Shown here piece after piece: positions 1,759 through 49,454 of a stretch of 64,000 nt of DNA (its first letter is position 1; every line of letters begins with the position of its first letter). The stretch is from Solwaraspora sp. WMMA2056. GTDB taxonomy: Bacteria; Actinomycetota; Actinomycetes; Mycobacteriales; Micromonosporaceae. The notes beneath the pieces are model-generated. The model was not told the DNA's origin and did no database searches. It saw only the letters and a program-made list of their open reading frames with translations. Made by a program: the position numbers and the translations under genes. The stretch is from contig NZ_CP128360.1 of assembly GCF_030345095.1 (NCBI RefSeq), positions 6,262,001-6,326,000 on the forward strand. Direction: 5' to 3'.

Positions 1759-2688
1759 GTGAATAACAGCGACGTCGCGGCGGCCGGCTCGGCCGAACGG
1801 GTGCTCGACCTGTTCACCGGCGTCCGTCTCACCCCCACCCAACGACGGATCGCACACAGCCTGGTGCAGCACGCCGGATCCGCCGCGTTCCTGTCCGCCG
1901 CCGAGGTCGCCGAACTGGCCCGGGTCAGCCAACCGTCGGTCACCCGGTTCGCCATGGCGCTCGGCTACGACGGCTACCCGGCGCTGCGACGCCGGTTGCG
2001 TGAGTTCGCCACCGGCACCAGCGCCACCGGCTCCGACGGCGCCGGTGCCGGTGCCGGGCTGCCGACGCCGCGCGGCGGTGGCCGCCGGGGCACCCGACGG
2101 CCCTACGCCGCCGACAACGAGATGCAGCGAGCGGTCCGCGCCGAGGCCGACCACCTGAGTCAGCTGGCCGACCAGCTCGCCGACCGGGACCGGCTCACCG
2201 CCGCCGGCACGGTCCTGGCCGACAGCGTCCCGCTGCCCGTGCTGGGGCTGCGGGCCGCCGCCCCACTGGCGCACTACTTCGGCTTCTTCGCCGCCAAGGT
2301 CCGCCCCGACGTACGGGTTCTCGACAGCGGCGGCAGCCTACTGCCCGAACGCCTCGAACAGGCCCGGGAGGCCGGCGCCAGCGCGTTGCTGGCGATCGTG
2401 CTGCCCCGCTGCCCCCGGGAGGCGGTGGACGCGCTGGTCGAAGCGCGGGCCATCGGCCTGACCATCGTGCTGATCACCGACTCGGCGCTGAGCCCGGCCG
2501 CCGAACACGCCGATCTGGTACTGCCCGCCCCGGTCGGCGACCAGCTCGTCTTCGACCTGCACGCCGCGCCGATGGCGTTGGCGATGGTGCTGCTGCAGGC
2601 GATCTGCGACGCCGCGCCCGGCGAGGCGCAGCGCCGGCTGGAGCAGTTCGAACGCTCCGCCGCCGCGCGCAACGTCTTCATCGGCTGA
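1759..2688 (+). CDS. RpiR/MurR-family regulator of the hut operon
   Basis: The 309-residue protein begins at GTG 1759. An N-terminal helix-turn-helix (about residues 20-78; [19 protein letters not shown]) is followed by a Gly/Ala-rich linker and a C-terminal SIS domain (about 130-275) that normally senses a phosphosugar or related effector. It is the first gene of the run and lies 22 bp upstream of hutU, so it is probably the pathway-specific regulator, possibly autoregulated from the divergent promoter. Use of an RpiR protein rather than HutC (GntR) for histidine catabolism is inferred from position only. The linker has lower complexity than the rest of the protein. Confidence 0.85.
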
Positions 2689-2710
2689 CCACCCGGAAGG
2701 GAACCGCGAC

Positions 2711-4423
2711 ATGGCTGAACTGATCCGCGCGGCGCGCGGCACCACCCGTACCGCCAAGGGGTGGCCGCAGGAGGCCGCGCTGCGGATGCTGATGAACAAC
2801 CTCGACCCGGACGTCGCCGAACGCCCCGACGACCTGGTGGTGTACGGCGGCACCGGCCGGGCGGCCCGGGACTGGCCGTCCTACCACGCCCTGGTCCGCA
2901 CGTTGACCGAGCTGGCCGACGACGAGACGCTGCTGGTCCAGTCGGGCCGGCCGGTCGGGGTGCTGCGCACCCACGAGTGGGCGCCCCGGGTGCTGCTGGC
3001 CAACTCCAACCTGGTCGGTGACTGGGCCACCTGGCCGGAGTTCCGCCGGCTGGAGCAGCTCGGGCTGACCATGTACGGGCAGATGACCGCCGGCTCCTGG
3101 ATCTACATCGGCACCCAGGGCATCCTGCAGGGCACCTACGAGACGTTCGCGGCGGTCGCCGCGAAACTGGCGGCGGGCGCTGGCGGCGCGCCGACCGACC
3201 CGACCGCCCCGCCGCCCTGGATCGACCGGGTCGGTACGGCGTCGCTGGCCGGCACGCTGACCCTGACCGCCGGCTGCGGCGGGATGGGCGGGGCGCAGCC
3301 GCTCGCCGTCACCATGAACGGCGGGGTGTGCCTGATCGTCGACGTCGACCCGCAGCGGCTCGCCCGTCGGGTCGCCACCCGCTACCTGGACACCGTCGCC
3401 GGTTCGCTGGACGAGGCGGTCGCCCTGGCCCGGGCGGCCCGCCGGGACCGGCGGGCGCTGTCGGTCGGCGTGGTCGGCAACGCGGCGACGGTCTTCCCGC
3501 AGCTGCTCGCCGCCGGCGTCGAGATCGACATCGTCACCGACCAGACCAGCGCCCACGACCCGCTCAGCTACCTGCCGGAAGGTGCCGAGCTGGCCGACGC
3601 GGCCGGTTACGCCCGCCGGGCACCGCAGGAGTACACCGAACGGGCCCGGGAGTCGATGGCCCGGCACGTGGCGGCGATGGTCGGCTTCGCCGACGCCGGT
3701 GCGGAGGTCTTCGACTACGGCAACTCGATCCGCGACGAGGCCCGCCTCGGCGGCTTCGACCGGGCGTTCGACTTCCCCGGTTTCGTCCCGGCGTACATCC
3801 GGCCGTTGTTCTGCGCCGGCAAGGGGCCGTTCCGGTGGGCTGCGCTGTCCGGTGACCCGGCGGACATCGCCGCCACCGACCGGGCGATCCTCGACCTGTT
3901 CGGCGACAACGAGGCGCTGGCCCGCTGGATCCGGCTGGCCGGTGAGCGGGTGGCGTTCCAGGGGCTGCCGGCCCGGATCTGCTGGCTCGGGTACGGCGAA
4001 CGGGAACTCGCCGGGGTGCGGTTCAACGAGATGGTCGCCCGCGGTGATCTGGCCGCCCCGGTGGTGATCGGCCGGGACCATCTGGACTGCGGGTCGGTGG
4101 CGTCGCCGTACCGGGAGACCGAGGCGATGGCCGACGGCTCGGACGCGATCGCCGACTGGCCGCTGCTCAACGCCCTGGTCAACACGGCCAGCGGCGCGTC
4201 CTGGGTGAGCATCCACCACGGCGGCGGGGTCGGCATCGGCCGGTCGCTGCACGCCGGTCAGGTCTGCGTCGCCGACGGGTCGACGCTGGCCGGGCAGAAG
4301 ATCGAACGGGTGCTGCGCAACGACCCGGCGACCGGGGTGCTGCGCCACGTCGACGCCGGCTACCAGTTGGCCGGCGACGTCGCCACCGCGCACGACCTGC
4401 CGGTGCCGATGAGGCAGCGATGA
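2711..4423 (+). CDS. hutU: Urocanate hydratase
   Basis: The product converts urocanate to imidazolonepropionate, step two of histidine degradation, in the cytosol using tightly bound NAD+. At 570 residues it has the usual length. The dinucleotide-binding glycine-rich segment ([19 protein letters not shown]) is near residues 185-203, and the active-site Cys lies in [10 protein letters not shown] near residue 422. The ATG at 2711 is preceded by a GGAAGGG ribosome site. The stop overlaps the ATG of the next gene by 4 bp (ATGA), indicating translational coupling. Gene order hutU - amidohydrolase - hutF - hutI - hutH makes a full route from histidine to glutamate. Confidence 0.97.
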
Positions 4424-5673
4424 GCGCCGACGGCGATCCGCTGGTCGCACGGTTCCGGGCGATGTGGGCGGAGCTGGCCGGCATCGGCCGTGATCCGGCC
4501 ACCGGCGGCTACCTGCGGTACGCGTGGTCACCGGCCGAGCTGGCCTGCCGGGAGTGGTTCGTCGCCGAGGCGACCGGTCGGGGGCTGGTGGTGCAGGCCG
4601 ACGGCAACGGCAACCTGTGGGCCGACTGGGTGCCGCCGGGGGTCGACCCGGCCGCCCCGGCGGTCGTCACCGGCAGCCACTTCGACTCGGTGCCGTACGG
4701 CGGCGGCTACGACGGCCCGCTCGGCATCGTGTCGGCGCTGCTCGCCGTCGACGTCCTGCGGGAGCAGGGGGTCGTGCCGGCCCGGCCGGTCACCGTCGCC
4801 GCGTTCGTCGAGGAGGAGGGGGCCCGGTTCGGCCTGGCCTGCCTCGGGTCGCGGCTGCTGACCGGCGCGGTACCACCGGATCGGGCGCTGGCCCTGGCCG
4901 ACGCGGCCGGGGTGACGCTGGCCGAGGCGATGCGGGCGGCCGGTGCCGACCCGGCGGCGGTCGGGCCGGATCCGACGCGGCTGGCCCGCATCGGGGTCTT
5001 CGTCGAGTTGCACGTCGAGCAGGGTCGGGCGCTGGTGGACCTCGGTGTCCCGGTCGGGGTGGCGAGCATGATCTGGCCGCACGGGCGGTGGCGGCTGGAG
5101 TTCACCGGTGCCGGCGACCACGCCGGCACCACCCGGATGGTCGACCGCCGGGATCCGATGCTGACCTGCGCGCACACGGTGCTCGCCGCCGACGCGCAGG
5201 CCCGGCGGCGCGGCGGGCACGCCACCATCGGCCGGGTCGAGGTCCGGCCGAACGCCACCAACGCGGTCCCGGCCCAGGTGCACGCCTGGTTGGACGCGCG
5301 GGCCGCCGACCCGGCGACCCTGGCCGAGCTGGTCGAGGCGATCACCGCCGACGCGGCGACGCGGGCCGCGGCGGACGGCACGACGGTCACCGTGACGGCC
5401 GAGTCGGACAGTCCACTGGTGGCGTTCGACCCGGCGTTGGCCGAGCGGGCGCGTACGGCGGTCGGGTCGGGGCTGCGCGTCGACGCGCCGGTGCTGCCGA
5501 CCGCCGCCGGGCACGACGCCGGTGTTCTCGCCGGGCACGTACCGACCGCGATGATCTTCGTACGGAATCCGACCGGGGTGTCGCACGCCCCCGGCGAGTA
5601 CGCCACCGACGACGACTGTGCCGCCGGGGTCCGGGCCCTGGCGGCCGCGCTCGCCGAACTGGCCGCCGGATGA
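4420..5673 (+). CDS. M20-family amidohydrolase (allantoate amidohydrolase/carbamoylase type) in hut operon
   Basis: The 417-residue protein is of the Zn-dependent amidase/hydantoinase/carbamoylase subfamily. Metal ligands are visible: His in GSHFDSV (about residue 87), Asp in GGYDGPLG, Glu pair in EEEGARF (about 130), His in ELHVEQGR and His in TAAGHDAG near the C-terminus. The family hydrolyses N-carbamoyl or N-formimino-type groups on amino acids. Its place between hutU and hutF, with no N-formylglutamate deformylase (hutG) nearby, suggests that it removes the formyl group left after HutF. That role is inference; allantoate amidohydrolase would be the default database label. Confidence 0.85.
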
Positions 5674-5704
5674 GCGGGCCACACCGGGTGCACGGGGGCG
5701 CGGC

Positions 5705-7027
5705 ATGAGGTGGTACGCCGAGTACGCGTGGCTGGGCGGGCCGGGCCCGGCCGCCGGGGTGCTGATCGAGGCCGAGGGGGGCCGGTTCACTGCGGTCACC
5801 GCCGACGTCACGCCGCCGCCGGGCGTGCCGAGGCTGGCCGGGGTGACCCTGCCCGGCCTGGCCAACGCCCACTCGCACGCCTTCCACCGGGCGCTGCGCG
5901 GGCGGACCCACGACGACCGGGGCAGTTTCTGGACCTGGCGGGACCGGATGTACGCGGTCGCCGGCCGGCTCGACCCGGACAGCTACCTGGCGCTGGCCCG
6001 CGCGGTCTACGCCGAGCTGGCGCTCGCCGGGGTGACCTGCGTCGGCGAGTTCCACTACCTGCACCACGACCCGCAGGGCCGACGGTACGCCGACCCGAAC
6101 GTGATGGCGGACGCGCTGGCGCAGGCGGCCGCCGACGCCGGGGTGCGGATCACGCTGTTGGACACCTGCTACCTGACCGCCGGGGTGGACGGCGCCCCGC
6201 TGGCCGGGACGCAGCGCCGATTCGGCGACGCCGACGTGGCGGCCTGGGCCGACCGGTCCGGCAGCTGGCGGCCGGCCGGTGCGCACGTCCGAGCGGCGGC
6301 GGCGGTCCATTCGGTACGGGCGGTGCCGGCCGCCGAACTGCCGGTCGTCGCGGACTGGGCGGCGCGTCGGCGGACTCCGCTGCACGTACACCTGTCTGAG
6401 CAGCCGGCCGAGAACGCGGCCTGTCTGGCCCGGTACGGCCGGACCCCGACGGCGGTGCTGGCCGACGCCGGGGCGCTCGGCCCGGCGACGACGGCGGTGC
6501 ACGCCACCCACCTGACCGACGCCGACGTGGCGCTGCTCGGCGACGCCGCGACCGGGGTCTGTCTCTGCCCGACGACCGAGCGGGACCTGGCCGACGGGAT
6601 CGGCCCGGCCGGGCCGCTGTCCGCCGCCGGGGTCACGCTGAGCGTCGGCAGCGACAGCCACGCGGTGATCGACCTGTTCGAGGAGGCGCGGGCGGTGGAG
6701 ACGCACGAGCGGCTGCGCACCGGCCGGCGCAGGCACTTCTCCCCCGCGCAGCTGCTGGCCATGGCGTCGCAGGCGGGGCACGCCGCGCTGGGCTGGGCCG
6801 ATGCCGGTCGGATCGCCGTCGGGGCGCGCGCCGACCTGGTCACCGTCCGGTGCAACAGCGTCCGTACCGCCGGGGTCGACCCGGCCGGGCTGGTCTTCGC
6901 GGCGACCGCCGCCGACGTCACCGACGTGGTCGTCGACGGCCGGCCGGTGGTCGCCGACGGCCGGCACCTGCACGTCGACGTACCGGCCGAGCTGGCCGCC
7001 GCGATCCGGGCGGTGACGGCCGGATGA
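5705..7027 (+). CDS. hutF: Formimidoylglutamate deiminase
   Basis: The product (440 residues) is an amidohydrolase-superfamily TIM barrel that deaminates N-formimino-L-glutamate to N-formylglutamate. Visible metal ligands are HSHAFHR (about residues 56-62), His in HVHLSEQ, His in VHATHL and Asp in [15 protein letters not shown]. The frame is open further upstream, but ATG 5705 gives the family-typical N-terminus and sits 31 bp after the preceding gene. HutF implies the five-step pathway releasing ammonia rather than formamide, so a deformylase is needed; the neighbouring M20 enzyme is the candidate. Confidence 0.93.
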
Positions 7028-7052
7028 CGGGCGCGATCCGGGCGGTGACCGG

Positions 7053-8240
7053 GTGACGACGGCGGCAGGCACCCTGCTGGTGACCGGCATCGGCGAGCTG
7101 GTCACCAACGATCCGACGCACGACGGCGGCCCGCTGGGGCTGCTGACCGACGCGGCGGTGCTGGTCGACGGCGACCGGATCGCCTGGGTGGGGCACGCGG
7201 CGCAGGCCCCGGCCGCCGACCGACGGCTCGACGCCGACGGCCGGGCCGGGCTGCCGGGTTTCGTGGACAGCCACGCGCATCTGGTCTTCGCCGGGGACCG
7301 GGCGGGCGAGTTCGCCGCCCGGATGGCCGGAGTCCGCTACGACGGCGGCGGCATCCGGACCACGGTGGCGGCGACCCGCGCCGCCGACGACGCGACGCTG
7401 CGCGCCACCGCCGGGCGGCTGCGCCGCGAGGCGCTGCGCCAGGGCAGCACCACGATCGAGATCAAGAGCGGGTACGGGCTCAGCGTCACCGACGAGGCCC
7501 GATCGTTGCGGGTGGCGGCCGAGTTCAGCACCGAGACGACGTTCCTCGGCGCCCACGTGGTGCCGGCCGAGTACACCGATCGCCCGGACGACTACGTCGA
7601 CCTGGTCACCGGGCCGATGCTGGCGGCTGCGGCCCCGTACGCCCGGTGGGTGGACGTGTTCTGCGAGCGTGGCGCGTTCGACGGCGACCAGGCCCGCGCG
7701 GTGCTCGCCGCCGGTGCGGCGGCCGGTCTGGGGTTGCGGGTGCACGCCAACCAGCTGGGGCCCGGACCGGGGGTGGCGGTTGCGGTGGAGCTGGGGGCGG
7801 CCAGTGCCGACCACTGCACCCACCTGTCCGACGCGGACGTGACGGCGCTGGCCGGGTCGTCGACGGTGGCGACGCTGCTGCCGGGGGCGGAGTTCGCCAC
7901 GAGGTCGCCGTACCCGGATGCCCGCCGGCTGCTCGACGCCGGGGTGACGGTCGCGTTGGCCAGCGACTGCAACCCGGGGTCGTCGTACACCACGTCGATG
8001 CCGTTCTGTGTGGCGCTGGCGGTGCGCGAGATGGGGATGACCCCGGCGGAGGCGGTCTGGGCGGCGACCGCCGGCGGCGCGCGGGCGTTGCGCCGCACCG
8101 ACGTCGGCGTGCTGCGCCCCGGTGCCCGCGCCGATCTGCTGCTGCTCGACGCGCCCTCCTATCTGCACCTGGCCTACCGGCCGGGCGTGCCACTGATCAG
8201 CCAGGTCCTGCACGACGGGGAGCCACAATGTCCACTGTGA
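7053..8240 (+). CDS. hutI: Imidazolonepropionase
   Basis: The product hydrolyses 4-imidazolone-5-propionate to N-formimino-L-glutamate, step three of histidine degradation. The 395-residue sequence carries [15 protein letters not shown] (about residues 69-83), the KSGYGL motif, HANQLG and the ASDCNPGSS metal/active-site loop of this amidohydrolase family. GTG 7053 is used; a short in-frame-incompatible ATG lies just upstream at 7024. The gene starts 25 bp after hutF, and its end overlaps the start of hutH by 13 bp, consistent with one transcript. Confidence 0.95.
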
Positions 8241-9769
8241 TCATCGAACCGACCGGGATGACCCCCGAGCAGGTACGGGCGGTGGCCCGCGACGGCGCGC
8301 GGGCGCAGCTGCACCCGGCGGCGCTCGCGGCGATGACCCGCAGCCGCGACATCGTGGAGTCGATCGAACGCGACGGCCGACCCGTGTACGGCGTCTCCAC
8401 CGGGTTCGGCGCCCTGGCCAGCAGTTTCGTCGCGCCGGACCGGCGTTCGGAGCTGCAGCACGCGTTGATCCGCTCGCACGCGGCCGGGATCGGCGACCCG
8501 ATGCCCGACGAGGTGGTCCGGGCCATGCTGGTGCTGCGGGTCCGGTCGCTGGCGATGGGCCGCTCCGGGGTACGCCCGCTGCTGGCGCAGGCGCTGCTGG
8601 ACCTGCTCAACCACCAGGTGACGCCGTGGGTGCCCCGGCACGGTTCGCTCGGCGCCTCCGGTGACCTGGCGCCGCTGGCACACTGCGCGATGGTGCTCCT
8701 CGGCGAGGGCTGGGTGCGGGATCCCGACACCGGGGAACGGATCGACGGTGGGGCGGCGCTGCGTCGGGCCGGGCTGACCCCGGTCGAGCTGGCCGCCAAG
8801 GAGGGGCTGGCGCTGATCAACGGCACCGACGGCATGCTCGGCATGCTGCTGCTGGCCATCGACGACGCCCGGCACCTGTTCACCATGGCGGACGTGACGG
8901 CGGCGCTGGCGATCGAGGCGATGCTCGGCTCGGACCGGCCGTTCCAGGCCGAGCTGCACACCATCCGGCCGCATCCCGGTCAGGCGGTGTCGGCCGGCAA
9001 CATCCACCGGCTGCTGCAGCGCTCGGCGGTGATGGACTCGCACCGCGACGACCTGATGCACGCGGTGCAGGACGCCTACTCGATGCGGTGCGCGCCGCAG
9101 GTCGCCGGGGCGGCCCGGGACACGCTGACGTTCGCCGCGACGGTGGCCGGCCGGGAACTGGGGTCGGTGGTGGACAACCCGGTGGTGCTGACCGACGGGC
9201 GGGTCGAGTCGACCGGCAACTTCCACGGCGCACCGTTGGGCTTCGCCGCCGACTTCCTCGCCATCGCCGCCGCCGAGGTCGGCGCGATCAGCGAACGCCG
9301 GGTGGACCGGCTGCTGGACGTCAACCGGTCCCGGGATCTGCCGGCGTTCCTGTCCCCGGACGCCGGGGTCAACTCGGGGCTGATGATCGCCCAGTACACC
9401 GCCGCCGGGATCGTCGCGGAGAACCGGCGGCTGGCCTCGCCGGCCTCGGTGGACTCGGTGCCCACCTCCGGCATGCAGGAGGACCACGTGTCGATGGGCT
9501 GGGCGGCCGCCGTCAAGCTGCGTACGGTGCTGGACAACCTGACCAGCCTGCTCGCCGTGGAGCTGCTTTCCGCCGTACGCGGCCTGCAGTTGCGCGCCCC
9601 GCTGCGGCCGTCACCGGCCGGGCAGGCGGCGGTCGAGATCGTCGACAAGCTCGCCGGCGAGCCCGGGCCGGACGTCTTCCTGGCCCCGGTGCTGGAAGCC
9701 GTCCGGGGGGTGGTGGCCGGCCGGGAACTGCGTGCGGCGATCGAGGCCGAGATCGGCCCGCTGCGCTGA
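8228..9769 (+). CDS. hutH: Histidine ammonia-lyase
   Basis: The product deaminates L-histidine to urocanate, the first step of the pathway. The 513-residue sequence has the Ala-Ser-Gly triad that forms the MIO electrophile in [14 protein letters not shown] (about residues 142-144), plus the family segment [11 protein letters not shown] near the N-terminus. The ATG at 8228 lies inside the end of hutI. The frame is open much further upstream, but that extension is out-of-frame hutI sequence and has no family homology. It is the last gene of the operon; no histidine transporter is present. Confidence 0.97.
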
Positions 9770-19951: not shown

Positions 19952-21949
19952 TTACTCGGCTGCGAAGAACATCGAACGGTTGGTCCAGTCGAGTGCCGGA
20001 TCCGGTTCGGCCAGGACGACCGCGGCTGTCCCGTCCACCGCGAAGTCCGCCGTGGGATCGAACGGAATGCTGCGCAGCCGACCGTCGGTCGAGCCGTAGA
20101 CGATGTTTCCGCCCACCCAGGCCATGCCCCGTACGCCGGTCCAGGTGACGCCGCTGGTCGGCAGGGCGAACTCGGTGGCACCGAGATAGTTGCCGTCGAG
20201 CTCGAAGTACCGGTAGAACAGCTGGTTGCTGCCGGAACCGGTGCGGGTGTAGTAGAGCCGGCCGTCGAGGTAGAACGCCCCGGTCAGCGACAACGCGTTG
20301 AACCACTCGTTGTAGCCCGAGCTCTCCCAGGGCGCACCGACCGTGTTGCCGTTGAACAGCGAGATGTCCAGCCGGCTGCCGGTCGTGGTGCCGGTGACCG
20401 GTCGGGCCCAGAAGATCCGGTCGTGCACCCGCCAGACGGCGCCGGCGTCGACCAGGTTGGGCTGGTTGGTCACCGCCGCCGCCCCGAGCGTCGACCCGTC
20501 GAACGGAATCTTCGTCAGGTCGCCGGTCGCCGACGGCAGGTAGAGGTAGCCGGTGGTGTCCGTCGGCGGGTTGCGCGGGATGATCGTGCGCCCGCCGGCG
20601 TGCGGGAACATGCCGAGCCGGCCGTGGTACTCGTTGCCCATGCCGTCGGAGTTGTGCCCGAAGTAGAGCCCGTCGGAGCCGATCCACAGCACCGGCACGG
20701 CCGAGCCCCAGCTGAGCGCTCCGGCCGGCAGGGCCGAGCCACCGCTGCGGCGCGGGTTCCAGTTGACCGGCATGCCGGTCGCCACCGAGACCGCGCCGAT
20801 GCCGAGCCGGTCGATCGCGCCGTTGCCGGCGTTGTCGCTGCGGTTCGGGTTGTTCAGCCAGCGGAAGTGCCCGCCGGTGTAGGCGATGCCGTCGTGGACC
20901 ACGACCGAGGTGATCGTGTCGTTGCCGGTGAAGTTGAGCCAGGTGCCGTCCAGGTTGGTGCCCCGGCTCGCGGTCTCGTAGCGGACCAGCGCGTCGCAGT
21001 ACGCCACCGGCCAGCCGGTGCCGCCGTTGGTGCCGACGACGAAGAAGCTGCTGTCCTCGGCGAAGCTGAGGTCCTGCACGTAGTGGGTGAACGATCGGGA
21101 GGAGCAGCCCGGCGCGAACCGGTGGTTGCTGTCCCAGTCGACCAGCGTCGGCGTACCGGTCAGGTCGACCATCGCGAGCTGCTCGCGGGGCAGCCCCTCG
21201 ACCTCCCGGAAGTTGCCACCGAAGACCAGCGTCGTGCCGTCCGGCGAGACGTCCAGGGTCCACACGTACGGGGAGACCTCGTGCCGGCCGACGGCGATGT
21301 CGATGTCGAAGGTCGGGTCGATCGCCCCGGTGGCCACGTCGAGCCGGGCAACGCCGGCGTGCGCCGTACCGTTGACCCAGTTGAACGCGCCACCGATGTA
21401 GAGCCAGTCGCCGCTGACGTCCATGTCGCGGACCACGCCGCCGTCGGAGCGGCCCTCCCAGCCCGGCACGGTCGCGCCGGTGGCCGGGTCGAGCGCCACC
21501 AGGTTGCGGCGGGCCTCGCCGTTGACGTTGCGGAACACGCCGCCGACGATCAGCTCGCCGGCCGGGGTGACCGCGAGCGTGTTCACCGCGCCGTCGAGAA
21601 CCGGCTGGAAGCCGGCGACCATGGCCCCGGTGGACCGCTGGTACGCGAACAGGTACGGGCGGGCCTCCCAGGTGGCCGAGCTGACCGGTCGTACCTCGGT
21701 GAAGGTGCCACCGACGAAGATGACGCCGCCGATCTCGGCGAAGGCGCGCGCCTCACCGTTGCGGGCATGTGGGGTGTGGTCGGCCGGGTTGGTCGAGACC
21801 AGCGTGGCCGTACCGGGTACGGGCATGACGGCGGCCGTTGCCGCGGTGGCACTCAGTGCCAGGGCCGTCGCCGCCACGCCGGCCGTCAGAGCTGTCGTCC
21901 ATACACGACGCCGGCTGGGCAGGGACCAGCCAGGCTGAGATTGGTTCAC
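19952..21949 (-). CDS. Secreted beta-propeller protein
   Basis: This 665-residue protein has a clear signal peptide (basic start, then TALTAGVAATALALSATAATA; cleavage near residue 40). The rest consists of repeated blade-like units such as RAFAEIGGVIFVGGTFTEV, VTPAGELIVGGVFRNVNG and WLYIGGAFNWVNG, resembling delta-60/PQQ-type propeller repeats. No catalytic motif is recognised, so it may bind or scaffold extracellular polymer. GTG 21949 follows a strong GGAGGG site. The start codon lies inside a large inverted repeat. It follows the polysaccharide operon on the same strand after a 107-bp gap, suggesting a surface-polymer role, which is inference. Confidence 0.8.
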   Translation of the reverse strand: MNQSQPGWSLPSRRRVWTTALTAGVAATALALSATAATAAVMPVPGTATLVSTNPADHTPHARNGEARAFAEIGGVIFVGGTFTEVRPVSSATWEARPYLFAYQRSTGAMVAGFQPVLDGAVNTLAVTPAGELIVGGVFRNVNGEARRNLVALDPATGATVPGWEGRSDGGVVRDMDVSGDWLYIGGAFNWVNGTAHAGVARLDVATGAIDPTFDIDIAVGRHEVSPYVWTLDVSPDGTTLVFGGNFREVEGLPREQLAMVDLTGTPTLVDWDSNHRFAPGCSSRSFTHYVQDLSFAEDSSFFVVGTNGGTGWPVAYCDALVRYETASRGTNLDGTWLNFTGNDTITSVVVHDGIAYTGGHFRWLNNPNRSDNAGNGAIDRLGIGAVSVATGMPVNWNPRRSGGSALPAGALSWGSAVPVLWIGSDGLYFGHNSDGMGNEYHGRLGMFPHAGGRTIIPRNPPTDTTGYLYLPSATGDLTKIPFDGSTLGAAAVTNQPNLVDAGAVWRVHDRIFWARPVTGTTTGSRLDISLFNGNTVGAPWESSGYNEWFNALSLTGAFYLDGRLYYTRTGSGSNQLFYRYFELDGNYLGATEFALPTSGVTWTGVRGMAWVGGNIVYGSTDGRLRSIPFDPTADFAVDGTAAVVLAEPDPALDWTNRSMFFAAE

Positions 21950-22000
21950 GCTTCCCTCCAGATGGGAAATTATCTCAGACAGCGTGAACCAACCTCAGCC
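21933..22000 (-). promoter_or_regulatory. Large inverted repeat covering the propeller gene's start codon
   Basis: Arms 21933-21952 and 21981-22000 are 20 bp each with one mismatch, separated by a 28-bp loop. In the minus-strand transcript the GGAGGG ribosome site lies at the end of the loop and the GTG start codon lies within the 3' arm, paired to the 5' arm. Such a hairpin would block initiation unless melted, suggesting thermosensor-like, ligand- or protein-controlled translation. Alternatively it is an operator for a dimeric DNA-binding protein. Confidence 0.75.
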
Positions 22001-22076
22001 GGGTCGGGCATCCACCGATCGGTCGGCGGATTATCTGGTTCCTATCAGTTACCGGTCGGATCTCCTCAGTGTCCGG

Positions 22077-23828
22077 TCAGCGGTTGACCGGGAGCGGTTG
22101 GTTGAAATAGGGGTCCTTGCCGGCCCGGGTGAACCCGGTCAGGGCGGACGGGGTGTGGTTCATGGTCATGTTGCAGGTCGCCGAGGTGGTGGTCGACCCG
22201 GCGGAATTGAAGTAGATCACCGCTTTGATCTTCGGGTGGGCCTTGATCGCCGCCGGGAACTGCTCGAACCACCGTTGCTTGGCTCCCGCGTCGGCCGGGT
22301 CGAAGTTCGTGCCGTACTCCGCCAACATCCGTGGCTTTCCGACGCCGATACGGTTGTCGTCGAGCCAGCGGTAGAAGCCGTTGACCGTGGTGTGCGGGTC
22401 CTTCCAGGTCTTTCCGCCGTTGCAGGCGTAGAAGTTGTACGGGTCGTAGCTCACCCAGTCCACGTAGGCGTCGCCCGGGTAGAGGCCGGCGTACCGGTCG
22501 TAATGCCCGGACCAGCCCATCATCACCCAGACCCAGACGGCGTTGTCCGCGCCGGCCTTGGCGAACCGTTCGTAGACGTAGCGCCAGGCCCGGACGAAGT
22601 CGGCGTCGCTGCCCTTCGCCGGCTCGTCCTCCGGCTCGTGGTCGAAGCCCATGAACACCGGCACACCGGTCGCCTTGATCCGGCCGGCCACATCGTCGAT
22701 GACCGAGTCGTACCGGCCGCTGTAGACGTCACGCCAGGTCAACGTCGTGCCGGTGGAGAAGATCCGGGACTCCCAGGCGAAGAACATCAGCCGGCCTTCG
22801 CGCATCTGCTGCTGCTCGAACTCGTCGGGGAACGCCCCGTTGCTGCCGGTGTTGGAGAAGTCGTGGTAGCGGTGCACCAGGTCGAACTTGCGCCCCACCT
22901 GTGCCTCCACCTCGGCCACCGCGCCGCCGTGGTTCCAGCCCTTGGCGGCGCTGGTCGGCGAGTACATCCCCCACCAGGCACCGCAGGACGGCACCAGCAG
23001 GTCGGACACCGCGCCGCAGCCGACTCCGGACGCCGGCGGCGTGGCCGACGGACTCGGTGGTGCCGTCGGTCCGGCCGTCGGCGACGCCGTGGCGGCCGGC
23101 GTGGTCGGCACCGGAGCGCTCGGTGGCGGTGTCGGCGCGGCGGTCGGCGACGCCGGCGGGCTGGTCGGGGCGGCAGCGGCCGCCTCGTAGCTGATCACCA
23201 GCCGGGGTCGGATCGACGGGTCCCGGTACTCCGTCGACGGCCAGTACACCCGCTGCGACAGCTCCTGCTGACGCAGCGCCAGGGTGTACGTGCCGTTGCC
23301 GGTGACCAGTGCGGACAGGTCCCATTCGTTGTAGCCCTTGCGGACCGTCGGCACGGTCGCCAGTGGCTCGTCGGCGGCCCCACCAGTGCCCGAGGTGGCC
23401 AGTGGCGGCCGGGCGGCCCGGGCGTCCAACGAGGTGGAATGCACCGCTACCCGGGCACCGAGGTCCTGCCAGGAGTACATCTGCAGGCGGACCCGCACGT
23501 CACGGGCACCGGCCGGGATCCGGTCCACGACGAACTCCACGACCGCGTCCCGGGCCCCCCTCGGGTTGCGCTCACACAGCGCGGGACAGGTGGCCAGGGT
23601 CGCCTTGACCGCGTTGTCACCGTCCTGTGGAACGTCGGTCGCGGTGGTGTCGGCGACCGCGACGACGGCGATCTCGTCGTCGGCGAACAGCGGCAGTGCG
23701 GTCACCACCATGCCGGCCAGCAGCGCGGCGCTGACCCCGCCGACGATCAACCGTCGCCGGCCGGAACCGGTCCGCGCGACGACCTTGCTCAATCTGTGTC
23801 TACTCAAGATCCAGCCCCCCTGTGGCAC
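22077..23828 (-). CDS. Secreted GH26-like glycoside hydrolase with N-terminal beta-sandwich domain
   Basis: The protein is 583 residues from GTG 23828; TTG 23807, 9 bases after AGGGGGG, is an alternative start. A signal/anchor helix (about 27-50) is followed by a DNRLRE-type beta-sandwich domain, a Pro/Thr/Ala/Ser-rich linker of about 55 residues, and a catalytic TIM barrel (about 285-583). Likely acid/base Glu is in VFMGFDHEPEDE (about residue 396) and nucleophile Glu in MLAEYGTNF (about 503), as in GH26-type mannanases and related enzymes. It may trim or release the exopolysaccharide made nearby. Substrate is not predictable from sequence. Confidence 0.75.
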   Translation of the reverse strand: MPQGGWILSRHRLSKVVARTGSGRRRLIVGGVSAALLAGMVVTALPLFADDEIAVVAVADTTATDVPQDGDNAVKATLATCPALCERNPRGARDAVVEFVVDRIPAGARDVRVRLQMYSWQDLGARVAVHSTSLDARAARPPLATSGTGGAADEPLATVPTVRKGYNEWDLSALVTGNGTYTLALRQQELSQRVYWPSTEYRDPSIRPRLVISYEAAAAAPTSPPASPTAAPTPPPSAPVPTTPAATASPTAGPTAPPSPSATPPASGVGCGAVSDLLVPSCGAWWGMYSPTSAAKGWNHGGAVAEVEAQVGRKFDLVHRYHDFSNTGSNGAFPDEFEQQQMREGRLMFFAWESRIFSTGTTLTWRDVYSGRYDSVIDDVAGRIKATGVPVFMGFDHEPEDEPAKGSDADFVRAWRYVYERFAKAGADNAVWVWVMMGWSGHYDRYAGLYPGDAYVDWVSYDPYNFYACNGGKTWKDPHTTVNGFYRWLDDNRIGVGKPRMLAEYGTNFDPADAGAKQRWFEQFPAAIKAHPKIKAVIYFNSAGSTTTSATCNMTMNHTPSALTGFTRAGKDPYFNQPLPVNR

Positions 23829-48617: not shown

Positions 48618-48631
48618 CCGCGGCACGGACC

Positions 48632-48670
48632 GAGCCACCGTCCGGCGCGGAGCGCACCGGACGGTGGCTC
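48632..48670. terminator. Bidirectional terminator hairpin
   Basis: Perfect 14-bp arms GAGCCACCGTCCGG (48632-48645) and its complement (48657-48670) with an 11-base loop lie between the convergent GH12 and aldo/keto reductase genes, 15 bp after the GH12 stop. The stem overlaps the aldo/keto reductase stop codon. Confidence 0.85.
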
Positions 48671-49454
48671 AGTCCCGCAGCTGGTCGATGGCGGCCATCT
48701 CGTCCGGGGTGAGGCGGAACCCGAAGACGTCGGCGTTGGCGACGATCCGCTGCGGCGTCACCGACTTCGGGATCACCACGATGCCGTGCTGCAGGTGCCA
48801 CCGCAGCACCACCTGGGCCGGGGTGACGCGGTGCCGCCCGGCCACCTCGACCAGCAGTGGATCGTCCAGGTCGGTGTTGCGGAACGGGCTGTACCCCTCC
48901 ACCACCACGTCCCGTTCCTGGTGCTCGGCCAACGTACGGCTGTCGTGCATCGCCGGCGCCCACGGCACCTGGTTGACCGCCGGGCGTACCCCGGTCTGCT
49001 CGATGAGTTCGTCGATCTGGGCCAGGCTGTAGTTGCTGACCCCGATCGCCCGCACCACCCCGGCGTCGCGTTGGGCGATGAACTCCCGCCAGGTGGGTAC
49101 GGCGGCACCACCGCGCGGCGGCCAGTGGATCAGCCACAGGTCGACGTACTCCGTCGCCAGCGCGGCCAGGCTGGCGGCGAGGGTCTCCGCTTCCTGGCCG
49201 AGGCGCTCGGGCGGGAGCTTGGTGGTGATGAAGACCTCCTGCCGGTCCAGCCCGCTGTCCCGGACCGCCCGGCCGACCTCGGCCTCGTTGCCGTACATCG
49301 TGGCGGTGTCCAGGTGCCGGTAACCGGCGTCCAGCGCGGCCCGTACCGCCCGGTAGCCGGACTCCCCCGTCGCCTGCCAGGTCCCGAAGCCCAGCATCGG
49401 CATGTCCACGCCGGGTCCCAGAGACACCCCGAGCTGCTCACCGTGGGTCGCCAT
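48669..49454 (-). CDS. Aldo/keto reductase
   Basis: This 261-residue TIM-barrel NADPH oxidoreductase has the catalytic tetrad Asp49, Tyr54, Lys79 and His110 (AGYRHLDTATMYGNE; FITTKL; DLWLIHWPP) and the cofactor motif GIVVIPKSVTPQRI near the C-terminus. It resembles 2,5-diketogluconate reductase-type enzymes, but the substrate is unknown. ATG 49454 is used. It shares a terminator with the GH12 gene. Confidence 0.93.
   Translation of the reverse strand: MATHGEQLGVSLGPGVDMPMLGFGTWQATGESGYRAVRAALDAGYRHLDTATMYGNEAEVGRAVRDSGLDRQEVFITTKLPPERLGQEAETLAASLAALATEYVDLWLIHWPPRGGAAVPTWREFIAQRDAGVVRAIGVSNYSLAQIDELIEQTGVRPAVNQVPWAPAMHDSRTLAEHQERDVVVEGYSPFRNTDLDDPLLVEVAGRHRVTPAQVVLRWHLQHGIVVIPKSVTPQRIVANADVFGFRLTPDEMAAIDQLRD

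Follow-up and report, generated by a model that had tools for sequence, protein, structure and literature searches.

The start codon of a beta-propeller gene in the window (the whole 64,000-nucleotide stretch of DNA analyzed here) lies within a 20-bp inverted repeat, and the best explanation we can offer, whose chance we put just short of even, is that the resulting stem is a fold-back insulator of this gene against read-through. The 5' arm would hold the -10 box CACGCT of the gene's own promoter, and the conserved CCRATCGGYGGAT site immediately before it would drive that promoter. The gene's usual mRNA would then begin in the loop, without the 5' arm and with an accessible start codon, and only a longer read-through RNA would carry both arms. 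Since an RNA with both arms could arise only from upstream, the GH26-like gene on the same strand is its possible source. In such read-through RNA, the 20-bp stem would bury the GTG and block translation; the read-through transcription itself would not be stopped, and translation alone would be blocked. It is probable that the long stem is under selection in the window's genus, and that it acts on read-through RNA is, as we infer, an evenly balanced matter. The features concerned are as follows.

19952..21949, minus: beta-propeller gene, 665 aa
21933..21952, minus: 3' arm of the inverted repeat, AGCGTGAACCAATCTCAGCC, spanning the 3 bases that precede the start, the GTG and the initial codons
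21947..21949, minus: GTG start codon, within the stem (3' arm)
21953..21980, minus: 28-nt loop, with the Shine-Dalgarno sequence and the putative transcription start
21954..21959, minus: Shine-Dalgarno sequence GGAGGG, within the loop
21973..21975, minus: putative transcription start, from promoter geometry, about 7 nt past the -10 box
21981..21986, minus: putative -10 box CACGCT, inner six bases of the 5' arm, from fixed spacing and substitution pattern
21981..22000, minus: 5' arm of the inverted repeat, GGCTGAGGTTGGTTCACGCT, read 22000-21981
22002..22007, minus: weak -35-like CCGACC, 15 nt before the -10 box, by the NTGACC consensus of PMC4895711
22010..22022, minus: conserved CCGATCGGTGGAT (consensus CCRATCGGYGGAT), candidate activator site abutting the -35 region, from comparative evidence
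22023..22076, minus: 54-nt gap that separates the conserved motif from the stop codon of the GH26-like gene, with no hairpin beyond shuffles (z +0.5)
22077..23828, minus: GH26-like gene (Pfam score 21.1 against a cut-off of 20.2), lying upstream on the same strand

The propeller named in the first-pass annotation matches Pfam DUF5122. Judged by eye, its N-terminus resembles a signal peptide, and the protein looks like a secreted one. The GH26-like gene ends 127 nt before the propeller start. Downstream of the propeller gene are a hexapeptide-repeat transferase, a protein with just weak NCBIfam matches to chain-length determinants and a protein that is weakly O-antigen ligase-like (below the Pfam cut-off), and these neighbors suggest an exopolysaccharide locus. 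Of 100 loci scanned, 92 have a GH26-like gene directly upstream in the same orientation; the eight loci with no such match were six from Salinispora together with L023 and L077, which we take for one genome because their contigs are equally long. In these Salinispora loci (L051-L054, L056 and L057), the leader is still present next to a flank that has no GH26-like gene, and another same-strand gene, which we assume to be shikimate dehydrogenase-like, ends about 110-125 nt before the motif.

The two arms are complementary at 19 of 20 positions, as had been claimed, and the sole odd pair would be G·U in RNA; the 28-base loop with GGAGGG and the GTG in the stem were likewise confirmed by their coordinates. 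The minus-strand RNA 22060-21900 has a predicted fold of -78.5 kcal/mol (z -6.8), which none of 200 shuffles reached, in agreement with the folding check that had been proposed. The claim that such a stem is rare by chance also held: it is the single inverted repeat in the window with 20-nt arms matching at 19 or more positions (loop 3-60), and 20 first-order Markov sequences used as a chance control gave a mean of 0.1 repeats at 18/20 or better and zero at 19/20. At the 18/20 level, the window yielded shifted versions of the start-codon repeat and one short-loop hairpin at 48626-48676. The latter is a strong inverted repeat close to where two ORFs, apparently convergent, end, and is probably a bidirectional terminator. 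A genome-wide scan detected no second copy of the repeat or of either arm above chance level in the organism's own genome, and a repeat family or mobile element was ruled out because there is one copy only.

Orthologous leaders were collected from several overlapping samples. Orthologues came from 40 named contigs (Micromonospora, Salinispora, Verrucosispora and one Micromonosporaceae bacterium); a homologue at E up to 1e-30 was present in 241 of 300 family genomes, in part of which the leader was sought, and among 160 genomes from the genus of G226, 93 had a close orthologue. These leaders share, in order, CCRATCGGYGGAT, CACGCTAC, GGAGG and (A)GCGTG, parts of which were required by the filters. 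Of 86 loci, only L062 and L064 failed the first filter, which demanded CCNATCGG, GGAGG and GCGTG; after inspection by eye, they were included in later sets. The second required CCNAT[CT]GGNNGAT and GGAGG, and passed 149 of 157 loci (the genome sets overlap), which gave 108 unique leaders. Of its eight misses, five show the motif on inspection, the genome of L155 re-entered as L225, L230 begins past the motif, and the last is L208. It should be noted that the filters demanded the motif and the Shine-Dalgarno sequence, so that the near-invariance of both is partly imposed. For substitution and covariation, a tree was used of 86 unique composite rows, which were assembled from the 108 leaders, any rows of other length being excluded. 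CCRATCGG and CACGCT occurred together in none of 43 distant homologues (L103-L145; stretches of about 500-590 nt), and the leader thus belongs to the close orthologue group.

The CCRATCGGYGGAT motif, which has a palindromic core CCRATYGG, is nearly invariant upstream of the propeller gene across close orthologues (in part because of the filters). We considered a CCRATCGGYGGAT regulon and rejected it: the exact motif occurs 18 times in the seven genomes of the window's genus, seven of these occurrences being the propeller leader, and the rest of the leader was missing from the flanks examined at the other 11 sites. With one mismatch allowed, the window held no more matches than shuffles did. 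A hairpin suggested by CCGCCCAATCGGCGG was also dropped, as its 3' half is better conserved and some rows break its pairs. The open-access literature searched has no mention of the motif in any of three spellings.

The core of the 5' arm is very probably the promoter of the propeller gene, judging from its spacing and substitution pattern. The distance from the start of CCRATCGGYGGAT to the hexamer is 36 nt in 92, 35 nt in 15 and 37 nt in one of the 108 unique leaders, and that from the hexamer to the start codon ranges over 28-37 in the same set. The pattern CCRATCGGNNGAT followed by 18-36 bases and CACGCTA matched once each in 49 of 300 genomes, with total lengths of 43 nt in 43 genomes and 42 nt in six (38-56 were permitted); the same pattern read backward gave zero matches among the 300. 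On the 86-row tree, the six hexamer positions underwent 6, 0, 5, 1, 1 and 0 substitution events, against 5-18 (mean 11.8) at 22 spacer positions. The would-be partners of hexamer positions 1 and 3 in the start region underwent 0 and 1 events; these two positions vary while their partners barely do, and pairing is therefore not their constraint. The 86 rows contain CACGCT (68), GACGCT (7), GAGGCT (4) and CAGGCT (3), and one each of TAGGCT, GACTCT, AAGGAT and GAAGCT. All eight types fit NANNNT, including those of relatives in which the pairing is broken; the finder, which matched 108 of 108 leaders, imposed NA[CGA][GT][CA]T at four offsets, and the invariance of A2 and T6 is thus partly built in. 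L062 (from G014, another genus) keeps the motif and CACGCTACG, its start is ATG, and AGCGTG, and with it the 3' arm, is missing. This locus is useful as an outgroup for dating the repeat.

According to PMC4895711, 80.4% of S. coelicolor starts have the -10 consensus TANNNT, and leaders there have a median length of 44 and a mode of 30-39. The propeller leader would resemble such actinobacterial promoters with short leaders in its NANNNT hexamer, although its predicted length of about 25 nt is somewhat below that median and mode (PMC4895711). It differs from those TANNNT promoters in that the first base of the -10 box is usually C or G (CACGCT fits TANNNT poorly at this position), the -35 is weak, and an extra, strictly conserved 13-bp site lies upstream. 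This site, at about -48 to -36 relative to the putative start, fits an activator site. CTGACC replaces CCGACC in four of the seven genus genomes; a conserved -35 box 16-18 nt upstream was absent from the 86-row tree, where positions -22 to -17 before the hexamer underwent 9-18 events, as the spacer did, and a consensus scan of the window's leader for a sigma-70 promoter found none. The -10-like conservation at fixed spacing indicates that transcription probably starts inside the loop, and if CACGCT is the -10 box, with a start near 21974, then the normal mRNA would be without the 5' arm. A transcription start inside the loop was what the first-pass annotation had named as evidence against its strong translational switch, and comparative promoter evidence would place the start, at about 21974, there. 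The part of that proposal which is supported is the predicted burial of the start in all seven genus genomes; the part which is not is its action in the normal mRNA, which would lack the promoter-like core of the 5' arm.

Within the window's genus, both the propeller gene and the leader are present in 7 of 7 genomes. The leader was matched by blastn (E up to 1e-4) in 0 of 293 other family genomes, which does not amount to its absence because diverged leaders escape that search. Across the 20 pairs of the seven genomes, standard pairs make up 91.4% of cells, compared with 26-43% when one side is slid. Fifteen pairs are invariant, one is altered on both sides (G-C to A-U), and two are altered on one side via G·U. 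The remaining two (columns 62 and 63) are mismatched in six of the seven genomes and paired only in the window's, so that none of the other copies is as perfect as the window's, and in those six a 2x2 internal loop would separate a helix of 12 pairs from one of 6. Every difference among the outer 12 pairs preserves a standard pair, the sole departure from Watson-Crick pairing being G·U (7 of 84 cells). The covariation evidence in the seven genomes alone is weak, as 29 of 500 shuffles attained the covariation score and 248 of 500 the count of double-changed pairs; in alifold, the covariation term contributed -0.67 of -53.0 kcal/mol. In the comparison across relatives that had been suggested, the repeat recurs throughout the genus, but neither these seven genomes nor the 86 rows gave significant covariation.

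It is possible, though we consider it unlikely, that the stem is a functionless by-product, in which a short ancestral CACGCT/AGCGTG complementarity was lengthened in this genus, for example by template switching at a quasi-palindrome. Of 86 leaders, 65 retain all six core pairs (CACGCT/AGCGTG) and the rest do not, and the event counts fit a promoter rather than pairing; both observations favor such an origin. So does the loop, which within the genus is as conserved as the arms (identity 0.94), as is the Shine-Dalgarno sequence. Against it, the outer 12 pairs vary in ways that keep standard pairs, and conservation falls off at the edges of the arms. On the 5' side, mean identity is 0.90 for the outer 14 arm bases versus 0.78 for the adjacent 9 of the spacer, and in the most divergent member the arm is kept (0.88) and the adjacent spacer is not (0.52). 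On the 3' side, the start region outlasts the later codons, with a mean identity of 0.93 over the 20 bases that begin with the GTG, of which 17 belong to the arm, versus 0.76 and 0.62.

The predicted burial of the start region was assessed in a fold-back test, in which the downstream part was held fixed, the upstream part was shuffled and the energy required to open the region from the Shine-Dalgarno sequence to the start was calculated. For the window, opening this region is predicted to cost 18.9 kcal/mol in the long RNA, but an average of 8.3 when the upstream sequence is shuffled and 6.9 in the short RNA, which was modelled from the 7th base after the hexamer. The native upstream sequence buries the start region beyond shuffles in all seven genus leaders (z 3.3 to 6.4), with at most 1 of 100 shuffles as high for each. 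Among all 108 leaders, which are not independent of each other, the fold-back z exceeds zero in 98 and 2 in 46 (median 1.8); it is near or below zero in several lineages and is higher where the six core pairs are intact (median 2.2 versus 1.0). In L047, the promoter spacer and the Shine-Dalgarno region form a perfect inverted repeat of 15 bp, and the pairing of -10 box and start codon is broken there; this is apparently an independent way to bury the same site.

The insulator reading also bears on the sequence between the two genes. Gaps in other genera have a mean hairpin z of -2.4 and a median of -42 kcal/mol, with 32 of 56 unique gaps below -2, and they are also longer than those of the window's genus. 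In the latter, five of seven gaps have z above -1 (-6.6 to -13.7 kcal/mol), the exceptions with a gap hairpin being L011 (z -3.3) and L015 (z -2.0). The gap of L062 is not terminator-like (z +1.6), and its fold-back z is 0. Many Micromonospora gaps among L022-L061 contain a long, GC-rich, terminator-like hairpin with no T run; it spans 14 bp in L024 and L025, and the arm sequences differ among species. A bolder reading, which we hold to be less likely than not, is a genus-specific event in which a terminator between two chromosomal genes was replaced by a translational insulator, the -10 box and spacer having become complementary to the coding start; template switching may have extended an ancestral match of 6 bp. 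It should be noted, however, that fold-back is common outside the genus too, though many such genomes have terminator-like gaps, and that the contrast between terminator and stem is one evolutionary contrast, in which 24 of the 56 other gaps are not below z -2.

A less probable alternative than a by-product is that most transcription begins before the 5' arm and that the stem is a riboswitch, a thermometer or a protein-controlled leader. The very stable fold and the start region buried in every genus member would suit such a switch, and in other genera the start or the Shine-Dalgarno sequence can pair upstream, alone or in a pseudoknot-like A-B-A'-B' arrangement. However, the 5'-arm core is conserved in a promoter-like manner at fixed spacing, and L062 retains CACGCT without the 3' arm. 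In addition, no column pair covaried at E below 0.05 in the 86 rows under a tree-based null (best E about 7), and Rfam gave six matches at E up to 5 over 21500-22500, none near its gathering score. We had considered a riboswitch with a helix A formed by the Shine-Dalgarno region and the promoter spacer (pseudoknot-like in Micromonospora; 15 bp in L047), and this idea was dropped because neither helix A nor the start-codon helix gives a covarying pair. As a caution, a strong leader hairpin at a start codon is not evidence for a riboswitch until the transcription start has been placed relative to the 5' arm. The open-access literature searched held nothing on Micromonospora leader riboswitches with start-site data, which does not prove that no such report exists.

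The weakest alternative, and an improbable one, is the large operator also raised in the first-pass annotation, with the arms as two DNA half-sites and a repressor over the -10 box and the start codon: the left half does overlap the putative -10 box, the right half lies about 48 bp downstream, and CACGCT and AGCGTG recur in most relatives (GCGTG being filter-required), but only the window's genus has the outer 14 bp of each arm, the outer 12 pairs depart from Watson-Crick pairing only by RNA-tolerable G·U, left-half positions 1 and 3 vary freely outside the genus, the half-sites are not conserved jointly (L062 keeps the left core only), and no second genomic copy of an arm rises above chance level. 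The two inner pairs mismatched in six of seven genomes speak against the operator and the RNA readings alike.

The proposed insulator has a parallel in phage T4, in which long early transcripts of gene e (lysozyme) fold and are translated about 100-fold less, and soc, 49 and I-TevI have inhibitory leaders like that of gene e, according to PMC3014915. In both cases, the start region would be sequestered in a helix on long upstream transcripts, which for the propeller gene is a prediction; the starts, the structure and the effect are reported as measured for gene e, whereas all are inferred for the propeller leader. The latter also differs in that it belongs to a bacterial chromosomal gene with no early/late program such as that of T4. 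In the IS10 and IS50 transposase genes, an inverted repeat prevents the translation of RNA that reads in from outside, and RNA from the element's own promoter is translated. The propeller repeat differs from these in that it is not a mobile element, occurs in a single copy and has no transposase.

If the insulator reading is correct, promoter-born mRNA would be translated and read-through mRNA would not, a terminator-free uncoupling of neighboring genes in an actinomycete, and the promoter would double as an antisense to its own start codon that keeps adjacent genes independent. T4 gene e would then gain a chromosomal counterpart, and the birth and loss of the stem could be traced across a family. 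With regard to read-through sequestration in Actinobacteria, the open-access literature searched yielded nothing relevant, its one match being a broad synthetic-biology review.

Elsewhere in the window, the ORFs at 1759-9769 have the look of a histidine-utilization cluster, presumably comprising urocanase-, HutF-, HutI- and HutH-like genes beside an RpiR-like regulator.
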